This document shows positions 4,254 to 42,239 of a DNA stretch of 64,000 nucleotides, piece after piece. A model generated the notes under the pieces. It had not been told where the DNA came from and did no database searches. It saw only the letters and a program-made list of their open reading frames with translations. Made by a program: the position numbers and the translations under genes. The stretch is taken from NCBI RefSeq assembly GCF_900109465.1, contig NZ_FOAZ01000032.1, forward strand, positions 1 to 64,000, written 5' to 3'. How positions within the stretch are numbered: position 1 is the first letter of the stretch; each line of letters opens with the position of its first letter. The stretch comes from Streptacidiphilus jiangxiensis (GTDB taxonomy: Bacteria; Actinomycetota; Actinomycetes; Streptomycetales; Streptomycetaceae).

Positions 4254-4291
4254 GTCGGAGCAACCTTTCGGGCCACCAGCGGCAACAAGGG
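4254..4291 (+). promoter_or_regulatory. ECF-sigma-like promoter element upstream of first GH5 gene
   Basis: GTCGG, then CAACCTTTCGG, then 8 nt, then GCGGCAAC. The same pattern recurs at 26765-26798. CAACCT at 4261-4266 and GGCAAC at 4281-4286 are spaced like the -35 and -10 boxes of ECF sigma promoters. The GGCAAC box ends exactly 42 nt before the ATG at 4328, the same distance as in the second copy. Function is inferred. Confidence 0.5.
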
Positions 4292-4327
4292 GACGGATCA
4301 AGTTCGTTCGTCACGAAGGACTGAGAG

Positions 4328-6088
4328 ATGAAGGCAACTCGCCAGGCCGCACGGCACCGTCGTGGCAGGCTCGGGCTGATGGTGGGGACCCCGGTGGCGC
4401 TGATCGCCGCCGGTGGGCTCGTCTACGGCTCCGCGTCGGGTGCGACCACGGGCGGAGCGCCCGGCCAGGCGCCCTCGGCGGTGGCCCACGCGCGGTCGGG
4501 CGCGATGGCGGCCGTGGCCGCGATGCAGCCCGGCTGGAACCTGGGGAACAGCCTGGACGCCATCCCGGCCGAGACCTCGTGGGGCAATCCGGTGGTCGCC
4601 AAGGCGCAACTGGACGCGATCCGCGCGCAGGGCTTCCGCAGCATCCGCATCCCGGTCACCTGGAGCGGCCACCAGGGCTCCGCCCCCGGCTGGACCATCG
4701 ATCCGGCCTACGTCGCCCGGATCAAGCAGGTGGTGAACTGGGCCCTGGCGGACGGCTTCTACGTGGTGCTCAACGTCCACCACGACTCCTGGCAGTGGAT
4801 CGCCGGCATGCCCGCTGACCACGACGGAGTCCTGGCCCGCTACGACGCCACCTGGACGCAGCTCGCCGCGCAGTTCCGCGACGAGTCGGACCACCTGGTC
4901 TTCGAAAGCGTCAACGAGCCCACGTTCACGAACGCGTCGGACGCCCAGAAGGCCGCGCTGCTCGACGAGTTGAACACCTCCTTCCACCGGATCGTGCGCG
5001 CGTCGGGCGGAGCGAACGCGACGCGCCTGCTGGTGCTGCCGACCATCGGCGACACGCCGAGCCAGTCGCTGATGAACGACCTGGCGACCACGATCGCCTC
5101 GCTCCATGACGACCGGATCATCGCGAGCCTGCACTACTACGGCTACTGGCCGTTCAGCTCCTCCAACGCCGGTGTGGACCGGTTCGACGCCGCGAGTCTG
5201 CAGGACATGACGGCCGTCTTCACGCGCATGCACGACACGTTCGTCGCCAAGGGCATCCCCCTCATCCTCGGCGAGTACGGGCTGCTCAGCTACCCCGACA
5301 TCAACCACCCGGACGTGGTCGAACGCGGCGAGGCGCTGAAGTACTTCGAGGAGATCGGCCACCAGGAGCGGATCAACGGCATCACCGGCTTCCTGTGGGA
5401 CAACGGCGCCTACCTGGACCGCACCACGCTGCGCTGGCGGGACCCGGGCCTGTTCGCGGAGATCAAGGACGGCTGGACGACCCGCTCCGGCACGGCCTCC
5501 AGCGACCAGGTCTTCGTCCCGGCGTCGGAGCCCGTCACCGCCCGCACCCTGACGCTCAACCCGAACGGGACCGCCTTCCGCGGCCTGTTCGAGGGCCGTA
5601 CGGCGCTGGTCCAGGGACGCGACTACACGCTGGCCGACAGTCGCCTCACCCTCACCCCGGCCTTGCTCGCCCGCCTGACGGCACACCACGGCTACGGAGT
5701 CGCCGCCACCCTGACGGCCCGGTTCTCGGCGGGGGCGGCGTGGCAGATCCGTGTCGTCTCCTCCGCGACGCCCGTGCTATCCGGCGCCTCGGGCAGCACC
5801 AGTGGGCTCACCGTCCCGGCGCAGTTCCGCGGTGACGTGCTGGCGACGGTGAAGGCCCACTACTCCGATGGCAGCAACGCCGGCCCGAACAACTGGACGC
5901 CGTTCCTGGGCTTCGACACCGACGTCGTCCCCGACTCCGCGCATCACACCCTGACCCTGTCGTCCGAATTCTTCCAGGGGATCAAACAGGGTGCACAGGT
6001 CACCCTCACCGTCCGCTTCTGGAGCGGCGCGACCGTGACCTACCACGTGACGGCGTGGGGCAGCTCCGTCACCGGCACCGCCTCCTGA
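4328..6088 (+). CDS. Secreted GH5 (subfamily 4-like) endo-glucanase / xyloglucanase
   Basis: A 586-residue secreted GH5 enzyme that should cut beta-1,4-glucan backbones such as xyloglucan. A basic N-terminus and a hydrophobic segment (about 15-38) form the signal. The catalytic domain spans about 55-385 with [16 protein letters not shown], the acid/base Glu197 in ESVNEP and the nucleophile Glu316 in LGEYG. Two beta-rich modules follow (about 395-480, CBM_X2/Ig-like, and 490-586, ending in [19 protein letters not shown]46-like), the layout known from GH5_4 enzymes such as Bacillus Cel5B. It is a clear paralogue of the gene at 24975. Its 3' end overlaps the convergent GH95 gene by 49 bp. Subfamily and substrate are inferred. 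Confidence 0.9.
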
Positions 6089-24974: not shown

Positions 24975-26723
24975 ATGACGCACCACCTGCCCGTGGCACG
25001 CCACCGCGCACGCGGGGCGAGCCTGGCCGCGACCGCCGCTCTGCTCCTGTTGGCCCCGGCCACGATCGGCGGCACGGCCTTCGCCGTCGACAGCACGGCC
25101 CCCACAACCCCCACCGACGCGACCCCGATGGTCCACAACCGGGCCATGGACACCGTCGCGCGGATGCAGCCCAGCTGGAACATGGGCAACAGCCTGGACG
25201 CCATCCCCGACGAGACCTCCTGGGGCAACCCGCCCGCGACCAAGGCGCTGTTCGACTACATCAAGTCGCAGGGCTTCCGCAGCGTCCGCATCCCCGTCGC
25301 CTGGAGCAACGGCCAGTCGGCGACCGCCCCGTACACCATCGACCCGACCTACCTGGCCCGGGTCAAGCAGGTCGTCGACTACGCCCTGGCCGACGGCCTG
25401 TACGTGGACATGAACGTCCACCACGACTCCTGGCAGTGGATCACCAACATGCCCACCCAGCACGACCAGGTGCTGGCCCGGTTCGACGCGACCTGGACGC
25501 AGCTCGCGGAGACCTTCCGCAACGAGTCGGACCGGCTGCTCTTCGAGAGCGTCAACGAGCCCGGCTTCACGGGCGCCACCGGCGACGCCCAGAAGATGTC
25601 GCTGCTGGACGAGTTGAACAACTCCTTCCACAGCATCGTGCGCCGGTCGGGCGGCGGGAACGCCACCCGCCTGCTCATCCTTCCGCCCGTCGGCTCCAGC
25701 CCGGACCAGACCTCCATGGAGCATCTGGCCGCCGACATGGCGACGCTGAACGACCCCGACCTGGTCGCCACCGTGCACTACTACAGCTTCTGGCCGTTCA
25801 GCGTGAACATCGCGGGCTACACCACCTTCAATGCCCAGACGCAGCAGGACCTCACCGACGCCTTCAACCGGATGCGGGACATCTTCACCTCCAAGGGCAT
25901 CCCCGTGTACCTCGGCGAGTACGGACTGCTGAGCGAGCCCGACTCCGGCATCGTCGAGCGCGGCGAAATGCTCAAGTACTTCCAGGAGGTGGCCTATCAG
26001 GCGCGCCTCGACCACGTGACCACCGCGCTGTGGGACGACGGCAACTTCCTGGACCGCAACGCGCTGCAGTGGCGCGACCCGGCCCTGTTCTCCTGGATCA
26101 AGTCGAGCTACCACACCGAGTCCGGCACCGCCTCCACCGACCAGGTCTTCGTCTCGAAGTCCGGTCCCGTCAGCGCCCAGACGCTCACGCTGAACCTCAA
26201 CGGGACGGATTTCCTCAGCATCTGGCAGGACGACACCCGCCTGGTCCGTGGCCGGGACTACGCCGTCTCCGGCAACCAGCTCACCCTGACCGCGGCCGAA
26301 CTCGCGAAGTTGACCGGCACGGGGGCGTACGGCGTCAACTCCACCCTCCAGGTCCACTTCTCCCGGGGCCTGCCCTGGCAGATTCAGGTGATCACCAACG
26401 ACACGCCGGCGCTCTCGGGCGCGACCGGCACCAGCGACTCCCTCGCCATCCCCACCCAGTTCCACGGCGACCGGATCGCCACCATGGAGGCCTCCTACGC
26501 CGACGGCACCGGCGCCGGCCCCGCCTCCTGGACCACCTACCAGGAGTTCGGCACCGCCTTCTCCCCCGACTACACGGGCGGCGCACTGACCCTCACCTCC
26601 GCGTTCCTGACCTCGCTCAAGGACGGCGCGCCGGTGACGCTCACCTTCCACTTCTGGAGCGGCACCAGCGATACCTACCACCTGACCAAGTCCGGGACCT
26701 CGGTCACCGGCACCTCCTCCTGA
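24975..26723 (+). CDS. Secreted GH5 (subfamily 4-like) endo-glucanase / xyloglucanase, second copy
   Basis: A 582-residue paralogue of the protein at 4328, alike over its full length. Signal peptide about 1-37 (LLLLAPATIGGTAFA). Catalytic domain about 50-385 with NMGNSLD, MNVHHDSW, acid/base Glu195 in ESVNEP and nucleophile Glu315 in LGEYG. The same two C-terminal beta modules end in WSGTSDTYHL. Unlike the first copy it sits inside the LacI-controlled operon, 38 bp after GH43, and lacks the upstream promoter element. Two differently regulated copies of one activity are thus likely. A terminator follows at 26741. Confidence 0.9.
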   Translation: MTHHLPVARHRARGASLAATAALLLLAPATIGGTAFAVDSTAPTTPTDATPMVHNRAMDTVARMQPSWNMGNSLDAIPDETSWGNPPATKALFDYIKSQGFRSVRIPVAWSNGQSATAPYTIDPTYLARVKQVVDYALADGLYVDMNVHHDSWQWITNMPTQHDQVLARFDATWTQLAETFRNESDRLLFESVNEPGFTGATGDAQKMSLLDELNNSFHSIVRRSGGGNATRLLILPPVGSSPDQTSMEHLAADMATLNDPDLVATVHYYSFWPFSVNIAGYTTFNAQTQQDLTDAFNRMRDIFTSKGIPVYLGEYGLLSEPDSGIVERGEMLKYFQEVAYQARLDHVTTALWDDGNFLDRNALQWRDPALFSWIKSSYHTESGTASTDQVFVSKSGPVSAQTLTLNLNGTDFLSIWQDDTRLVRGRDYAVSGNQLTLTAAELAKLTGTGAYGVNSTLQVHFSRGLPWQIQVITNDTPALSGATGTSDSLAIPTQFHGDRIATMEASYADGTGAGPASWTTYQEFGTAFSPDYTGGALTLTSAFLTSLKDGAPVTLTFHFWSGTSDTYHLTKSGTSVTGTSS

Positions 26724-26764: not shown

Positions 26765-26798
26765 TCGGCAACCTTTCCGCGCCCGGCGGCAACGAAGC
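26765..26798 (+). promoter_or_regulatory. ECF-sigma-like promoter element upstream of expansin gene
   Basis: GTCGGCAACCTTTCCG, then 8 nt, then GCGGCAACGAAG. It matches the element at 4254-4291 over both boxes. CAACCT is at 26769-26774 and GGCAAC at 26788-26793, ending 42 nt before the ATG at 26835. Spacing between boxes is 13 nt here and 14 nt in the other copy. Confidence 0.5.
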
Positions 26799-26834
26799 GG
26801 TGGTAACACCGACTCGACAGGGGCGAACGAACGG

Positions 26835-27800
26835 ATGGGCATGAGGGGAACGAGGCGCGCCGCGCCGCATTCACGACACGGACGCGAGCAGGGACGCGGG
26901 TTGACCACGGGCGTTCCGGCCGCGTTGCTGGCGGTCGGGGTGCTGACCTGCCTGGTGCTGGCCTTCCTGCCGGACGGCGGTCCCACCGACGCAGGGCGTG
27001 CCCTCGCGGCCGCCCGGACGGGCGCCCTGCCCGGCACCGCACCGGTGGCCGCTTCCGGTGCCGCCGGGGCGGTGGCCTCGTCGTCGCTGCCGCCGCACAC
27101 CGGAACCGCCTCGGCGTCGGTGTCCTCACCCCACTCGGCGACCGGCGGCGCCGCTTCGCTCGCCGGGTCGGCGGTGGCGCCCCTGGCCGGGCGGATCAAG
27201 CCCGGCGTCGCCTACCACGGCGTCGCCACCGCCTACGCCGCTGCGGACGGCAACGGCGCGTGCCTGTTCGGGCCGACCAGTGACCTGATGGTCGCGGCCA
27301 TGAACTACACCGACTACGAGTCGTCCAAGGCCTGCGGGGACTACGTGCTCGTGCACGCCGCCAACGGCGCCTCGCTGACGGTGCGGATCGTGAACGAGTG
27401 CCCCCTGCCCTGCGCGCCCGGCCAACTCGACCTGAGTCAGCAGGCGTTCGCGCGCCTCGCCGACCTCAGGGTCGGCCGTCTGCCGATCACCTGGACGCTG
27501 CTGAGCCCCGCCTCGCTCGGCCCGCTCTCCCTGCGGTACAAGACCGGCTCCACCCAGTGGTGGTGCGCGATCCAGGTGATCGGTCACCGGAACCCGGTCG
27601 CCCTGCTGGAGGTCCGGACGGCGGGCGGCTGGCGTCGGCTCCCACGCACCGACTACGACTACTTCGTCTCCGCCGACGGCAGCGGCTGCGGCGGGCCGGT
27701 CAGGATCACCGACATCTACGGCCAGCAGCTGACCGTCGACGGGATCGCGCTGCGGCCGGATGTCGCGCAGCCGACCGGCGTCCAGTTCGCCCGGCATTGA
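26835..27800 (+). CDS. Secreted expansin-like protein (DPBB plus CBM63)
   Basis: A 321-residue protein resembling bacterial expansins such as EXLX1. A basic N-terminus and a hydrophobic segment (about 25-46) form a signal or membrane anchor, then an Ala/Ser/Pro linker to about 120. The double-psi beta-barrel (about 123-212) starts GVATAYAAADGNGACLFG and contains Asp199 in GQLDLS, the position needed in expansins. The C-terminal CBM63 (about 218-315) has WWCAIQVIGH and aromatic residues typical of the cellulose-binding face. Expansins loosen cellulose/xyloglucan contacts without hydrolysis. It follows the xyloglucan operon and precedes an ECF sigma gene. Confidence 0.9.
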   Translation: MGMRGTRRAAPHSRHGREQGRGLTTGVPAALLAVGVLTCLVLAFLPDGGPTDAGRALAAARTGALPGTAPVAASGAAGAVASSSLPPHTGTASASVSSPHSATGGAASLAGSAVAPLAGRIKPGVAYHGVATAYAAADGNGACLFGPTSDLMVAAMNYTDYESSKACGDYVLVHAANGASLTVRIVNECPLPCAPGQLDLSQQAFARLADLRVGRLPITWTLLSPASLGPLSLRYKTGSTQWWCAIQVIGHRNPVALLEVRTAGGWRRLPRTDYDYFVSADGSGCGGPVRITDIYGQQLTVDGIALRPDVAQPTGVQFARH

Positions 27801-27856
27801 CCGGGCAGCCATCCAGCCGCCCGGTCTCGTTGACGACCGCTGCTACCCTCACGCGT

Positions 27857-27870
27857 TGTTAACGCGCACA
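27857..27870. promoter_or_regulatory. LacI-operator-like sequence upstream of ECF sigma gene
   Basis: TGTTAACGCGCACA, 26 nt before the sigma start, differs by one base from TGTTAACGCTCACA inside the GH127 gene (34982). The central CG and TGT/ACA ends are LacI-like, but the arms pair at only four of seven positions. Also part of the imperfect stem GCGTT-GTT-AACGC. Confidence 0.3.
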
Positions 27871-27895: not shown

Positions 27896-28426
27896 ATGCT
27901 CCCCGACGACGCGTCCGCAGAGTTCCACGACTTCTTCGAACGCCACTACGCCGAACTGGCGCGCTTCGCCCACCTGCTGACCGGCGAGGCGGATGCGGCC
28001 GACGACCTGGCCGCCGACGCCCTGGTCACGCTCTGGCAGAACTGGGACCGACTCCGCGCGGCCGAGCACCCGCGCGCCTACGCGCGCGGCGTGGTGGCCA
28101 ACATGGCCCGCGAACGGGTTCGGAGCACGGTCCGGGAGCGCCGGCGGATCACGCTCTTCTGGTCCCGCGTCCCGGAGCGGACGGAAGGACCCGACGTGGC
28201 CGCCGTGCTCGACGTGCGCACCGCGCTGACGCGGCTGCCGTTCCGCAGACGGGCCTGCGTCGTGCTGCGGCACGCCTTCGACCTGTCGGAGAAGGACACC
28301 GCGATGGCGCTCGGCATATCGGTCGGTACGGTCAAGAGCCAGACCTCGAAGGGGCTGGCCGAGCTGGAACGCATACTCGGCGTACGATCCGCCGAGGTGT
28401 TGGTGGCAGGGAGGAGGGTTTCGTGA
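27896..28426 (+). CDS. ECF RNA polymerase sigma factor (SigE-family type)
   Basis: A 176-residue group 4 sigma factor. Region 2 (about 13-78) includes FFERHYAELARFAHLLTG and DDLAADALVTLWQNW; region 4 (about 108-165) includes LTRLPFRRRACVVLRHAF and GISVGTVKSQTSKGLAEL for -35 recognition. The stop overlaps the start of the next gene by 4 bp (28423-28426), the usual arrangement of a sigma factor with its anti-sigma partner. It lies 96 bp after the expansin gene and may recognise the CAACCT/GGCAAC elements at 4261 and 26769 (inference). Confidence 0.92.
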   Translation: MLPDDASAEFHDFFERHYAELARFAHLLTGEADAADDLAADALVTLWQNWDRLRAAEHPRAYARGVVANMARERVRSTVRERRRITLFWSRVPERTEGPDVAAVLDVRTALTRLPFRRRACVVLRHAFDLSEKDTAMALGISVGTVKSQTSKGLAELERILGVRSAEVLVAGRRVS

Positions 28427-29187
28427 GCGAGGAGATCAAGCGGCAGCTGCGCGAGTCCGCCCGGGTCTACCAGCCGGACCGCGCGAGGATGCTGGCCCGC
28501 GCGGAGCGCGGCCTGGCCGGTCCCGTCGTCCGTCACCGCACCCGTTCCTTCACCAGGTCGGGCCCGCGGACCGTCCTCGCCGGGCTGGCCACGGCGGGCC
28601 TGCTGGCGACCGGCGGCTTCGCCGTCGCCGACATCGTGCACGGCCCGTCGCCGTCGACCACCGTCACCACGCCCACCGAATCGCCGTCGCCCATGCCCCG
28701 CCCGACACCCTCGGATTCCGCCACCACCCCCGCGACGCCGTCGACCGCGGCCGGGGGCGGGCATCAGCCTCAGCCCACCGGTCCGCGGCCCGCGGCCGGA
28801 CCGCTCTGGTCGGCAGGCTCGGTGGACCCGCACAGCACCGTCTACTGGTCGCAGAGCGACTTCGTCCTGCGGACCAAGCAGCCGCTCACCTCGCTCACGC
28901 TGGAGCTGCGCGTCGCGCAGACCGGCGGCGTGCAGAGCACGGGCAGCTGGCGCACCCTGCCGGTCGACGAGTTCACCGTCACCGTGCGGGAGGTCGGCGG
29001 CGCGCTGGTCTACCGCTGGGTGCTCAAACCCGGCCTGACCGTGCCAGCCGGGCAGTACGAGTTCGCCGCCCAGTTCAACCACTCCGTCGGCGTGCGTGAC
29101 GCGGGCGGCGACGGCTACCGGGTGGACGTGCGGACCTCGGCCGGTTCCCCGGTGGCGGTCTGGGGCGGGTTCCTGCCGGCCCGGTAG
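28423..29187 (+). CDS. Single-pass membrane protein, candidate anti-sigma factor with extracellular sensor domain
   Basis: A 254-residue protein. Residues 1-46 are polar, helical and cytoplasmic (IKRQLRESARVYQPDRARML); a membrane helix follows at about 48-70; then a Thr/Ser/Pro linker (about 74-126) and a beta-rich extracellular domain (about 127-254) with many aromatic and Thr residues. There is no HxxxCxxC zinc motif, so it is not a ZAS-type anti-sigma. Overlap with the sigma gene and the topology support a sigma-regulator role by analogy with RsgI proteins of cellulolytic clostridia, which sense polysaccharide outside the cell. I do not recognise the extracellular domain family. GGGAGGAGGG precedes the GTG. 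Confidence 0.65.
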   Translation: MSEEIKRQLRESARVYQPDRARMLARAERGLAGPVVRHRTRSFTRSGPRTVLAGLATAGLLATGGFAVADIVHGPSPSTTVTTPTESPSPMPRPTPSDSATTPATPSTAAGGGHQPQPTGPRPAAGPLWSAGSVDPHSTVYWSQSDFVLRTKQPLTSLTLELRVAQTGGVQSTGSWRTLPVDEFTVTVREVGGALVYRWVLKPGLTVPAGQYEFAAQFNHSVGVRDAGGDGYRVDVRTSAGSPVAVWGGFLPAR

Positions 29188-34313: not shown

Positions 34314-36341
34314 TCAGCCGGTGGGCAGCCAGACGCGCATCGAGCCGGAGCCGCGGTTGGCCCAGGCGAAGTAGGGAACGGCCGTCAGCTCCAGCGGGAC
34401 GCCGCGCAGCGCGGCGTCCGCCGCACCCGGCTCGGTCGTGGCCTCGGCCGAGCCGTCCGCAGCGGCAGGGTGGACGGCGTCGGCGGGCTCGGTGGCGCCC
34501 GCTGCGTCGGCGGGGCGGTAGGGCCACCAGTCCGTGGCGGGCAACGGCCTGCGGTGTCCGCCCGCCACGACGGTGACGACCCCGCCGAGCAGTTCGGGGC
34601 GCTCCTTGACGGCGAGCGGGACCCCGAGGTCCACGGTCACCTCGTCCAAGCCACCGCCGGGGTGGTCCACCTGCTCCAGGCAGTGGACCAGCGGACCGCG
34701 CTCGATCGCGACGCAGCCGCGCACCGCATCCACGCGCGGATCGGCGACGACCAGGCGCGGGTGCAGCTCCAGGTCCAGCACCACCCGCTCCCCCGGCGCC
34801 CACGCGCGCTCGACCCGCAGCCAGCCGTCGTCCAGGACCGCGCTCTCGACGGGCGGGCCGTCGTGGCCGTGAGCGAGGCGGTACCGGCCGCACCACTGGG
34901 GGACGCGCAGCGACAGTGTCCACGGCCGGGTCGGGGTCTGCTCGACGGTGATCTCGATGCGGCCCTGCCACGGATAGTCCGTGTTAACGCTCACAACTAT
35001 GGGCCGACTGTGCGCCTCCCCCTCGAAGCGCCCCGAGGCGTACTGGTGCAGTTGCAGGCCGCGACCGTCGGTGGAGGCGAGGTAGTGCGCCAGGCTGCCG
35101 AGCAACCGCATCACATTCGGCGGGCAGCAGGCGCAGCGGAACCAGCGGGTGCGGCGGGAGGACTGGTCACCGCCCGCGTCCACGTAGCCGTCGCGGACCT
35201 GGAGCGGGTTGACGTAGAGCCAGCTCTCGCCGTCCAGCGACATGCCGGCCAGGAAGCCGTTGAAGAGGGTGCGCTCGACGAGGTCGCTGTAGCGGGCCTG
35301 GCCGGTGAGCAGCGCCATGCGCCAGCCGAACTGGATCGACGCGATCGCGGCGCAGGTCTCGCAGTAGGCGCGTTCGTTGGGCAGTTCGAACGGGTCGCCG
35401 AAGTCCTCCTTGTCGTGATGGGCGCCGACGCCGCCGGTCAGGTGCGTCTTGGTGGCCGCCATGGCGTGCCAGAGCCGGACGCAGGCCTCGATGAGCGCAG
35501 GTTCTCCGGTCTCGGTGGCGAGGTCCGCCGCCGCGGCGAGGAGGTAGAGCTGCCGCACGGCATGGCCCTCGACGGTCTCGGCCTCGCGCAGCGGCACCCG
35601 GTCCTGGCAGTAGGCCTCGTGGCGGTGGGCGCCGTGGCCGTGGCGGTCGACGAAGTAGGCGGCGAGGTCCAGGTAGCGCCGCTCGCCCGTCTCCCGATGG
35701 AGCTCGACGAGCGCGGTCTCCACCTCCGGGTGCGCGTCGAAGGTGTCCAGCGGCCTGCCGCTGCCCTCGGGCCCGAAGGTCGCGTCGATGTGGTCGGCGA
35801 AACGGCGGGCCACGTCCAGCAGTTCCTCGCGGCCGGTGGCGCGGTGGTGGGCGACGGCGGCCTGGATCAGGTGGCCCGCGCAGTAGAGCTCGTGGCCCCA
35901 CCGCAGGTCCGAGTAGCGCCCCTCTCCCTTGCCGGACTGGAACCAGGTGTTGAGGTAGCCGTCCTCCTGCTGCGCGGCGGCGACCAGGGCGACGATCCGC
36001 TCCACGTCCGCGGCGAGCTCGTCCTGAGGGTCGTCCGTGAGCTGCGCGAGCTGCCAGGAGGCGGCCTCAAGCCACTTGTAGACGTCGGTGTCCTGGAAGG
36101 GGTAGTCGCCGACGAAGGATCCCTCGGTCGCCCCGGCGACCAGGCGCAGGTTGTGCAGGTTGCCCGCGGCCTCCAGCAGCGCCGGCCCCTGCGGGATGCC
36201 GACCCGGGCGTTGACCCGGCGGCGCTCGTGCCAGAAGCCCGAGGTCACCTCGGCCGCGACGACGGGCCACAGCGCTGCGCGCGCCTGCGGCCCGAGTCGG
36301 ACCGGGCCGCTCGATGGACGGGACGGGGGCGTGCGGGACAT
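34314..36341 (-). CDS. Cytoplasmic GH127 beta-L-arabinofuranosidase
   Basis: A 675-residue enzyme of the HypBA1 family, which removes terminal beta-L-arabinofuranose with a cysteine nucleophile. The zinc-cysteine site is intact: Glu328 and Cys330 in YCETC, Cys405 and Cys406 in CACCPPN, matching Glu338, Cys340, Cys417 and Cys418 of HypBA1. No signal peptide. It is the first gene of the leftward operon (GH127, binding protein, two permeases, GH39-like) and divergent from a LacI regulator. Likely substrates are arabinosides of extensin, arabinan or arabinosylated xyloglucan. Confidence 0.94.
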   Translation of the reverse strand: MSRTPPSRPSSGPVRLGPQARAALWPVVAAEVTSGFWHERRRVNARVGIPQGPALLEAAGNLHNLRLVAGATEGSFVGDYPFQDTDVYKWLEAASWQLAQLTDDPQDELAADVERIVALVAAAQQEDGYLNTWFQSGKGEGRYSDLRWGHELYCAGHLIQAAVAHHRATGREELLDVARRFADHIDATFGPEGSGRPLDTFDAHPEVETALVELHRETGERRYLDLAAYFVDRHGHGAHRHEAYCQDRVPLREAETVEGHAVRQLYLLAAAADLATETGEPALIEACVRLWHAMAATKTHLTGGVGAHHDKEDFGDPFELPNERAYCETCAAIASIQFGWRMALLTGQARYSDLVERTLFNGFLAGMSLDGESWLYVNPLQVRDGYVDAGGDQSSRRTRWFRCACCPPNVMRLLGSLAHYLASTDGRGLQLHQYASGRFEGEAHSRPIVVSVNTDYPWQGRIEITVEQTPTRPWTLSLRVPQWCGRYRLAHGHDGPPVESAVLDDGWLRVERAWAPGERVVLDLELHPRLVVADPRVDAVRGCVAIERGPLVHCLEQVDHPGGGLDEVTVDLGVPLAVKERPELLGGVVTVVAGGHRRPLPATDWWPYRPADAAGATEPADAVHPAAADGSAEATTEPGAADAALRGVPLELTAVPYFAWANRGSGSMRVWLPTG
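34982..34995. promoter_or_regulatory. LacI-operator-like sequence inside GH127 gene
   Basis: TGTTAACGCTCACA resembles actinobacterial LacI operators (arms match at five of seven positions). It encodes SVNTDY within GH127 and uses the very rare TTA-containing string GTTAAC. It may be an intragenic auxiliary operator or chance. Confidence 0.3.
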
Positions 36342-41678: not shown

Positions 41679-42239
41679 ATGTCTCACAGCCACCTTGCCG
41701 GCCTCCAGATCGAGCAATGCCTGAGCGCGGCGGCGGCCGGTGATCACGAGGCGTTCGTCGGCGTCTACACGGGTCTCCTGCCGCTCGTGTGGGCCACGGC
41801 CCGGCGGGTGCTGCCCGACTCCGCGCAGACCGACGAGGTCGCCCAGGAGGTGATAGTGGAACTCTGGACCCTTGCCGGCCGCTTTCAGCCTGAGCGCGGA
41901 AACCCCCGGGCCTGGGCCGCGTCCATCGCTCGCCGACGGGCGATCGACCGGGTCCGTCACCAGCGTGCGCAACACCGTCTCGAACAGCGCGCCTCAGCTC
42001 TGACTCCGCCGCCGGTCCACGACAGTGTTGCGGAGCATGTAGAACGGGTCTTGGAATCCGAGCACCTGCATCGCGTCCTGATGAACCTGACTCCGCTTCA
42101 AGGTGAGGCGATCAGACTCGCCTTCTACGAGCACTGCACCTACACGCAAGTCGCCCTGCGATTGGGCATCCCGGTCGGAACCGCCAAAAGTCGCATCCGC
42201 AGTGCGTTGATCCGGCTCCGTCGAGAACTCGAGGCGTGA
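41679..42239 (+). CDS. ECF RNA polymerase sigma factor (SigK-like)
   Basis: A 186-residue group 4 sigma factor. Region 2 (about 25-95) has FVGVYTGLLPLVWATARRVL, DEVAQEVIVELWTLAGRF and RAWAASIARRRAIDRVR; region 4 (about 125-180) has LTPLQGEAIRLAFYEHCTYTQVA and GIPVGTAKSRIRSALIRL. It resembles the SigK group, usually paired with a membrane anti-sigma (RskA), but none is next to it. Surrounding gene fragments suggest the partner was lost or moved. Confidence 0.92.
   Translation: MSHSHLAGLQIEQCLSAAAAGDHEAFVGVYTGLLPLVWATARRVLPDSAQTDEVAQEVIVELWTLAGRFQPERGNPRAWAASIARRRAIDRVRHQRAQHRLEQRASALTPPPVHDSVAEHVERVLESEHLHRVLMNLTPLQGEAIRLAFYEHCTYTQVALRLGIPVGTAKSRIRSALIRLRRELEA

Follow-up and report, generated by a model that had tools for sequence, protein, structure and literature searches.

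The window, the whole stretch of 64,000 nt of DNA that was analysed, contains the gene of an ECF sigma factor followed by that of a one-pass membrane protein, and both lie directly downstream of an expansin gene. The GTGA common to the two open reading frames constitutes a 4-bp overlap. The pair, the parts of the partner protein and the predicted target genes in the window are as follows:

27896..28426, +: ECF sigma factor of the SigE family, 176 aa, limited to regions 2 and 4 (TIGR02983; Sigma70_r2, r4_2)
28423..29187, +: one-pass partner, putative anti-sigma factor or sensor, 254 aa, GTG start (assigned from overlap, transmembrane segment and gene order)
28423..28560, +: cytoplasmic segment of the partner, residues 1-46, conserved LR..A...PDR..MLAR in alignments, two predicted helices
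28573..28629, +: transmembrane segment of the partner, residues 51-69 (hydropathy, single hydrophobic stretch)
28630..28797, +: Pro/Ser/Thr-rich linker of the partner, residues about 70-125 (translation; low pLDDT)
28798..29172, +: outer beta-sandwich domain of the partner, residues 126-250 (alignment; AlphaFold2 model)
26835..27800, +: expansin of the EXLX1 family, predicted target (NF041144)
4328..6088, +: predicted target, a GH5 endoglucanase that carries CBM_X2 and CBM46
24975..26723, +: second gene of GH5-CBM_X2-CBM46 type, adjoining the expansin gene on its upstream side

The sigma factor scores 163.4 bits against TIGR02983 (cut-off 141.55) over model positions 3-158 of 162, which places it in the SigE family. 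Its partner fits no family in Pfam or NCBIfam. AlphaFold2 predicts helices at residues 3-15 and 20-31 of the cytoplasmic segment with pLDDT values of 71-79 over residues 1-30, and at this moderate model confidence the two-helix segment would resemble short anti-sigma factors. The translated partner contains no cysteine and therefore lacks the zinc anti-sigma motif (Hx3Cx2C); RsgI_N (searched at E<=1) and zinc anti-sigma domains are absent from 40/40 full-length homologues, among which we found no recognised anti-sigma domain. Weak matches to the partner within its own genome (L003-L006) were dropped as chance similarity in the linker or the N-terminus. The initial annotation had described a 4-bp overlap with a one-pass protein that carries a Pro/Ser/Thr linker and an outer beta-domain and is devoid of a zinc anti-sigma motif; open reading frames, hydropathy and model agree with the former, and the missing cysteine confirms the latter.

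Conserved neighbourhood and co-occurrence

We collected 80 homologous loci in a scan of one genome per species, belonging to the genera Streptomyces, Kitasatospora, Streptacidiphilus, Streptantibioticus, Kribbella and Catenulispora. The sigma gene adjoins the partner gene in 77/80 loci, with the NTGA overlap kept in 56 of those, and the preservation of this order argues that the pairing is not due to chance. An expansin gene is found directly upstream of the pair in 28/80 loci and an expansin remnant in 15; no expansin is adjacent in 34/80. The remnants are C-terminal scraps of some 30-90 residues just upstream of the sigma gene in 15 Streptomyces-type loci (L111, L113, L117-L121, L124, L131, L134, L136, L142, L149, L151 and L177), where the sigma-partner pair is kept, usually together with GH10-GH62.

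A Pfam scan of the neighbours at 33 non-redundant loci returned ricin-type lectins (16), expansins (15), GH10 (7), pectate lyases (7+2), GH74-like repeats (5), LacI (5), GH62 (4) and CBM2 (4). The neighbours of 13 other TIGR02983 sigma factors of the same genome served as a control and show none of these families repeatedly. In the window, the expansin scores 237.2 bits against NF041144 (cut-off 100) and is thus a member of the EXLX1 family, and the genes around the pair encode two GH5-CBM46 proteins, GH95, GH31, GH3, GH42, GH43, AXE1 and GH127, a cluster that looks like one for xyloglucan and arabinoside utilisation, mostly of the xyloglucan type. The neighbours had been called wall-active from the outset, and both the expansin directly upstream and the glycoside hydrolase and pectinase families that recur across loci bear this out.

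The expansin and the partner also occur together across genomes. In a sample of 61 genomes (that of the window and 60 relatives) an expansin is present in 17, and a partner homologue accompanies it in 16/17 of those vs 11/44 of the others (Fisher p=8e-7, calculated on related genomes, which are not independent samples). Within the genus, a strong partner homologue is present in 6/6 expansin genomes vs 0/8 others (p=3e-4).

Arabinose operator and outer domain

The elements predicted to control the sigma gene, and a further operator copy in the window, are as follows:

27841..27849, +: extended -10-like element TGCTACCCT of the sigma gene, TGnTANNCT kept in most orthologues
27857..27870, +: LacI-type operator TGTTAACGCGCACA, shared with araBDA, 26-39 bp ahead of the sigma start
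34982..34995, +: further LacI-type operator copy, inside the GH127 gene (34314-36248, -)

The operator of the sigma gene, TGTTAACGCKCACA, is the LacI-type operator of the araBDA operon. We searched the 9.5-Mb genome with the 14-mer, allowing K at position 10 and at most one mismatch, and obtained four sites. Two of them lie in the interval from a LacI-family gene to araB-araD-araA, one belongs to the sigma gene and one to the GH127 gene. Across the 61 genomes, the exact operator occurs at 42 sites in 16 genomes (control 0), and most of the identifiable ones among 30 sites that were fetched lie at LacI/araB, arabinose-type ABC genes, GH127 and the sigma pair. The strict operator stands at the corresponding place in 20/80 loci. 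Its sequence assigns the sigma gene to the arabinose (LacI family) regulon, and because the site is shared with LacI/araBDA, it is very likely that the arabinose repressor also controls synthesis of the sigma factor by repression. Simple autoregulation as the main control of the sigma gene was rejected, the element before the gene being the LacI/araBDA operator and not an autoregulatory ECF promoter. GH127 is a beta-L-arabinofuranosidase, and the operator lies inside its coding region in another genome (L212) as well.

The outer domain delineates a family of about 125 aa that has no entry in Pfam, and member 1 has no Pfam match. Modelled by AlphaFold2 with 70 homologues, it forms a nine-stranded beta-sandwich with a mean pLDDT of 91.3. 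Foldseek matches in the PDB are numerous and generic (integrin, YcnI, cohesin and CBM2, at TM about 0.5); the CBM family models do not match the domain, neither the partner nor the outer-domain profiles have a convincing relative by sequence in the PDB, and a viral fold library returned nothing informative. Among the outer domains there are only single weak matches to CBM_AftD, Wzt_C and CBM_17_28, so that the domain is assigned to no known carbohydrate-binding family. The comparison with CBM folds proposed in the initial annotation has thus yielded a confident beta-sandwich and, in place of a CBM-specific match, generic folds with CBM2 among them. Three tryptophans, W142, W176 and W199, are strictly conserved in the alignment. 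Conserved aromatic residues are usual in sugar-binding faces; these three may instead be core residues.

The domain is also found in other protein contexts. Two one-pass proteins combine it with a degenerate kinase-like N-terminus (L089:5544-7718 and L092:5415-7085), and in L095:6679-7701, which a SpoIIE-type phosphatase gene precedes, it is joined to a cellulose-binding CBM2. Judged by sequence, the kinase-like proteins and the CBM2 fusion fit an exchangeable sensor module. In L105:6987-8171 (-), a remnant of sigma region 2, devoid of region 4, shares one open frame with the transmembrane segment, linker and outer domain; this joined frame could be a natural fusion or decay. In L100 the outer domain seems to be fused to an M56 peptidase, but we discarded this fusion as apparent only, the middle of the frame looking non-coding.

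The signal that the outer domain receives admits a second reading, in which the regulon is the same, the domain monitors a secreted protein or the condition of the cell's own wall, and the plant polymer enters via arabinose and LacI alone. We consider this unlikely, yet the strongest of the alternatives: the domain matches no CBM and adopts a generic Ig/cohesin/YcnI-like fold, the arabinose operator could supply substrate specificity by itself, and other SigE-family pairs use the same layout with unrelated outer domains, whereas outer-domain homologues adjoin pectin, xylan and galacturonate genes even at loci without an expansin, one of them is fused to CBM2, and the tryptophans are strictly conserved, with the reservation about core residues given above. 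In the preferred reading, the outer domain would respond to plant-wall polymers or their breakdown products.

Predicted target promoter

Two copies of a candidate promoter are located in the window:

26766..26793, +: predicted expansin promoter CGGCAACCTTT-N9-GCGGCAAC
4260..4286, +: second promoter copy, ahead of the GH5-CBM46 gene and with a spacer longer by one base

Where expansin, GH10 and ricin-type genes lie near the pair, their upstream regions have the pattern GGCAACCTTT-N11-SGNNAC in common. In the 80 loci, the ECF-type promoter occurs at 61 sites in 47/80 loci vs 0 for the reversed pattern. The 59 genes behind it include 28 with ricin-type lectin, 22 with GH10, 21 with GH62, 17 with expansin and 5 with GH79-like assignments, and in 3/59 cases the promoter stands before the sigma gene itself. 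Written as GCAACCTTT-N11/12-GGCMAC, it has exactly two sites in the whole 9.5-Mb genome, one before the expansin gene and one before the first GH5-CBM46 gene, both in the window; no own copy was seen at the second GH5-CBM_X2-CBM46 gene (24975..26723). A looser scan of the same genome (3 mismatches) performed no better than its reversed control and was left out of the analysis.

The 61 whole genomes contain 24 sites of GCAACCTTT-N11/12-GGCMAC vs 2 for the control. The genes behind them are mostly expansins, glycoside hydrolases and lectin enzymes; some of these expansins are remote from the pair, also in genomes of another family. Where a genome has a close orthologue of the pair the promoter is present (6/6), vs 6/55 others (p=1.7e-5). 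Together with the remote expansins, this distribution is, on statistics drawn from related genomes, the signature of a trans-acting sigma factor. At L253 and L265, the promoter precedes secreted peptidase G1 (eqolisin)-like proteins, judged by eye, which are unexpected in a plant-wall regulon. The promoter-gene stretches of GH5-CBM46 (4260-6088) and expansin (26766-27800) resemble each other beyond the promoter, as both encode a basic leader of similar sequence at the N-terminus; promoter and leader may thus have been shuffled as one unit.

The promoter might be read by another SigE-type sigma factor, in which case the pair would stand among wall genes through shared repression or hitch-hiking. 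The -35 part of the GCAACCTTT promoter resembles SigE-type promoters, and in genome G038, the exception to the co-occurrence described above, an expansin is preceded by GCAACCTTT as -35 part only and no partner was detected, so that this part may be read by another sigma factor. Given that the promoter tracks the presence of the pair, reaches unlinked expansins and precedes the sigma gene in three loci, we regard this explanation as improbable and retain the sigma factor of the pair as the one that would read the promoter. Taken together, the conserved neighbourhood, the shared ECF promoter, the arabinose operator on the sigma gene and the co-occurrence of expansin and partner support, at the level of sequence, that the pair belongs to plant-wall polysaccharide breakdown.

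Proposed switch and known systems

We consider it likely that the pair is an arabinose-gated, membrane-sensor-controlled ECF switch for a small regulon of plant-wall loosening and hemicellulose attack. On comparative sequence evidence, the sigma-partner operon would be transcribed from a housekeeping-type extended -10 promoter that a LacI-family arabinose repressor would block at TGTTAACGCKCACA. The two-helix cytoplasmic segment of the partner may hold the sigma factor until the outer beta-sandwich meets a plant-wall polymer or breakdown product and the sigma factor is released, perhaps by proteolysis. Free sigma factor is predicted, again from comparison of sequences, to recognise GCAACCTTT-N11/12-GGCMAC and to transcribe the expansin and GH5-CBM46 genes. 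In relatives, its targets would also include genes for GH10-GH62 arabinoxylanase along with GH74-like and pectinolytic ones. Intracellular arabinose and extracellular polymer would jointly form an AND gate, and the feedback would be positive, since GH62, GH127 and enzymes like them release further arabinose. The 34/80 loci without an adjacent expansin, the window cluster, which is mostly of the xyloglucan type and has only two promoter copies, the generic fold of the outer domain and genome G038 count against this switch.

The roles of the partner as sigma inhibitor and of its outer domain as polymer reader are what we infer from anatomy and precedent. The precedents are the class II and class III anti-sigma factors CnrY and RsbN (PMC7406223, PMC8103513), and anti-sigma segments of <50 residues are considered class II-like (PMC7406223). 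Like these types, the partner has a short, zinc-free cytoplasmic segment, here predicted to be helical, and is membrane anchored; it differs from them in signal and outer domain, and sequence similarity to solved CnrY/RsbN-type structures is undetectable. A partner that acts on the sigma factor as positive co-factor or membrane tether and not as inhibitor would agree with 0/40 homologues carrying a recognised anti-sigma domain but is very improbable, since membrane anti-sigma factors are typically recognised by translational coupling, one-pass topology and a short, conserved two-helix segment in the cytoplasm.

The closest known parallel is provided by the SigI/RsgI sensors of Clostridium thermocellum (PMC4711584, PMC6056542), to which the initial annotation had likened the topology while noting that the protein families differ. 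In both systems the sigma factor is co-transcribed with a one-pass protein with an outer domain (here by a 4-bp overlap and adjacency in 77/80 loci), there are paralogous sets with differing outer domains, the regulon (here a predicted one) comprises plant-wall enzymes and targets are adjacent. The likeness ends with the layout, as neither an RsgI_N nor a zinc domain is present. SigI is not an ECF SigE-family sigma factor, in contrast to that of the window, for which TIGR02983 is the best model and no SigI model is among the best 25 of 78. The N-terminal domain of C. thermocellum RsgI comprises ~165 aa and is combined with a CBM (PMC4711584), whereas the partner has about 46 aa without an RsgI_N match; RsgI1-6 end in known CBMs and the partner in a beta-sandwich without a family match; sigI is autoregulated and the window sigma gene mainly shows a LacI-type arabinose operator. 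The pair would thus work like SigI/RsgI but would not be a member of that system.

ECF52 and ECF53 are actinobacterial ECF sigma factors coupled to membrane and predicted carbohydrate-binding parts (PMC10766802, PMC8999054), the latter being fused to the sigma factor and predicted without experimental validation (PMC10766802). Unlike ECF52/53, where anti-sigma, membrane and carbohydrate domains are all fused to the sigma factor, the pair consists of two genes and a minimal 176-aa sigma factor. LacI-type AraR regulons have the operator at LacI-araB and arabinose-import genes, the same operator as at the sigma gene, but the predicted regulon here includes the sigma-sensor operon as a second layer. 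We found no paper on this sigma-partner pair in the open-access literature, to which the search was confined.

In streptomycetes and their relatives, perception of insoluble plant polymers is attributed for the most part to repressors responding to small sugars. The chances are, in our estimate, even that the pair represents an undescribed class of plant-polymer sensing in Gram-positive aerobes, composed of a SigE-family sigma factor, a two-helix anti-sigma factor, a new carbohydrate-sensing module, an arabinose/polymer AND gate and an expansin as core target. With operator, promoter and regulon predicted, the pair is a conserved and testable candidate for a sigma-sensor system linked to the genes of expansin and arabinoxylanase; it would supply a signal class for one of many pairs of SigE-family sigma factor and membrane protein (13 in its own genome), and its outer domain defines a new family of ~125 aa, also present in other proteins that resemble receptors.

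The layout itself is common. In the genome of the window, 15 sigma factors score above the TIGR02983 cut-off, and 13/15 are followed by a one-pass partner with a short N-terminus: the window sigma factor, its contig 44 paralogue and 11/13 of the remaining ones; of the last two, one has an atypical partner and one has none. The outer domains of these partners are unlike one another. The window pair is therefore one member of a large set and not a lone architecture, and what distinguishes it from the other SigE-family pairs is its tie to plant-wall breakdown. The claim of a new actinobacterial sensing pair consequently survives in its plant-wall link and fails as that of an isolated new architecture, as the same genome has about 13 similar pairs and Streptomycetales, Catenulispora and Kribbella together have at least 80 homologues. 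The individual loci (L007-L021, L187-L199), in which 13/15 SigE-family sigma factors have a similar partner, usually with a 4-bp overlap and with unrelated outer domains, indicate a family-wide sensory design of sigma/one-pass pairs. A further sigma-like stretch, at 66.8 bits below the TIGR02983 cut-off, is located at 41748-42236 (+) of the window within a 763-aa open frame.
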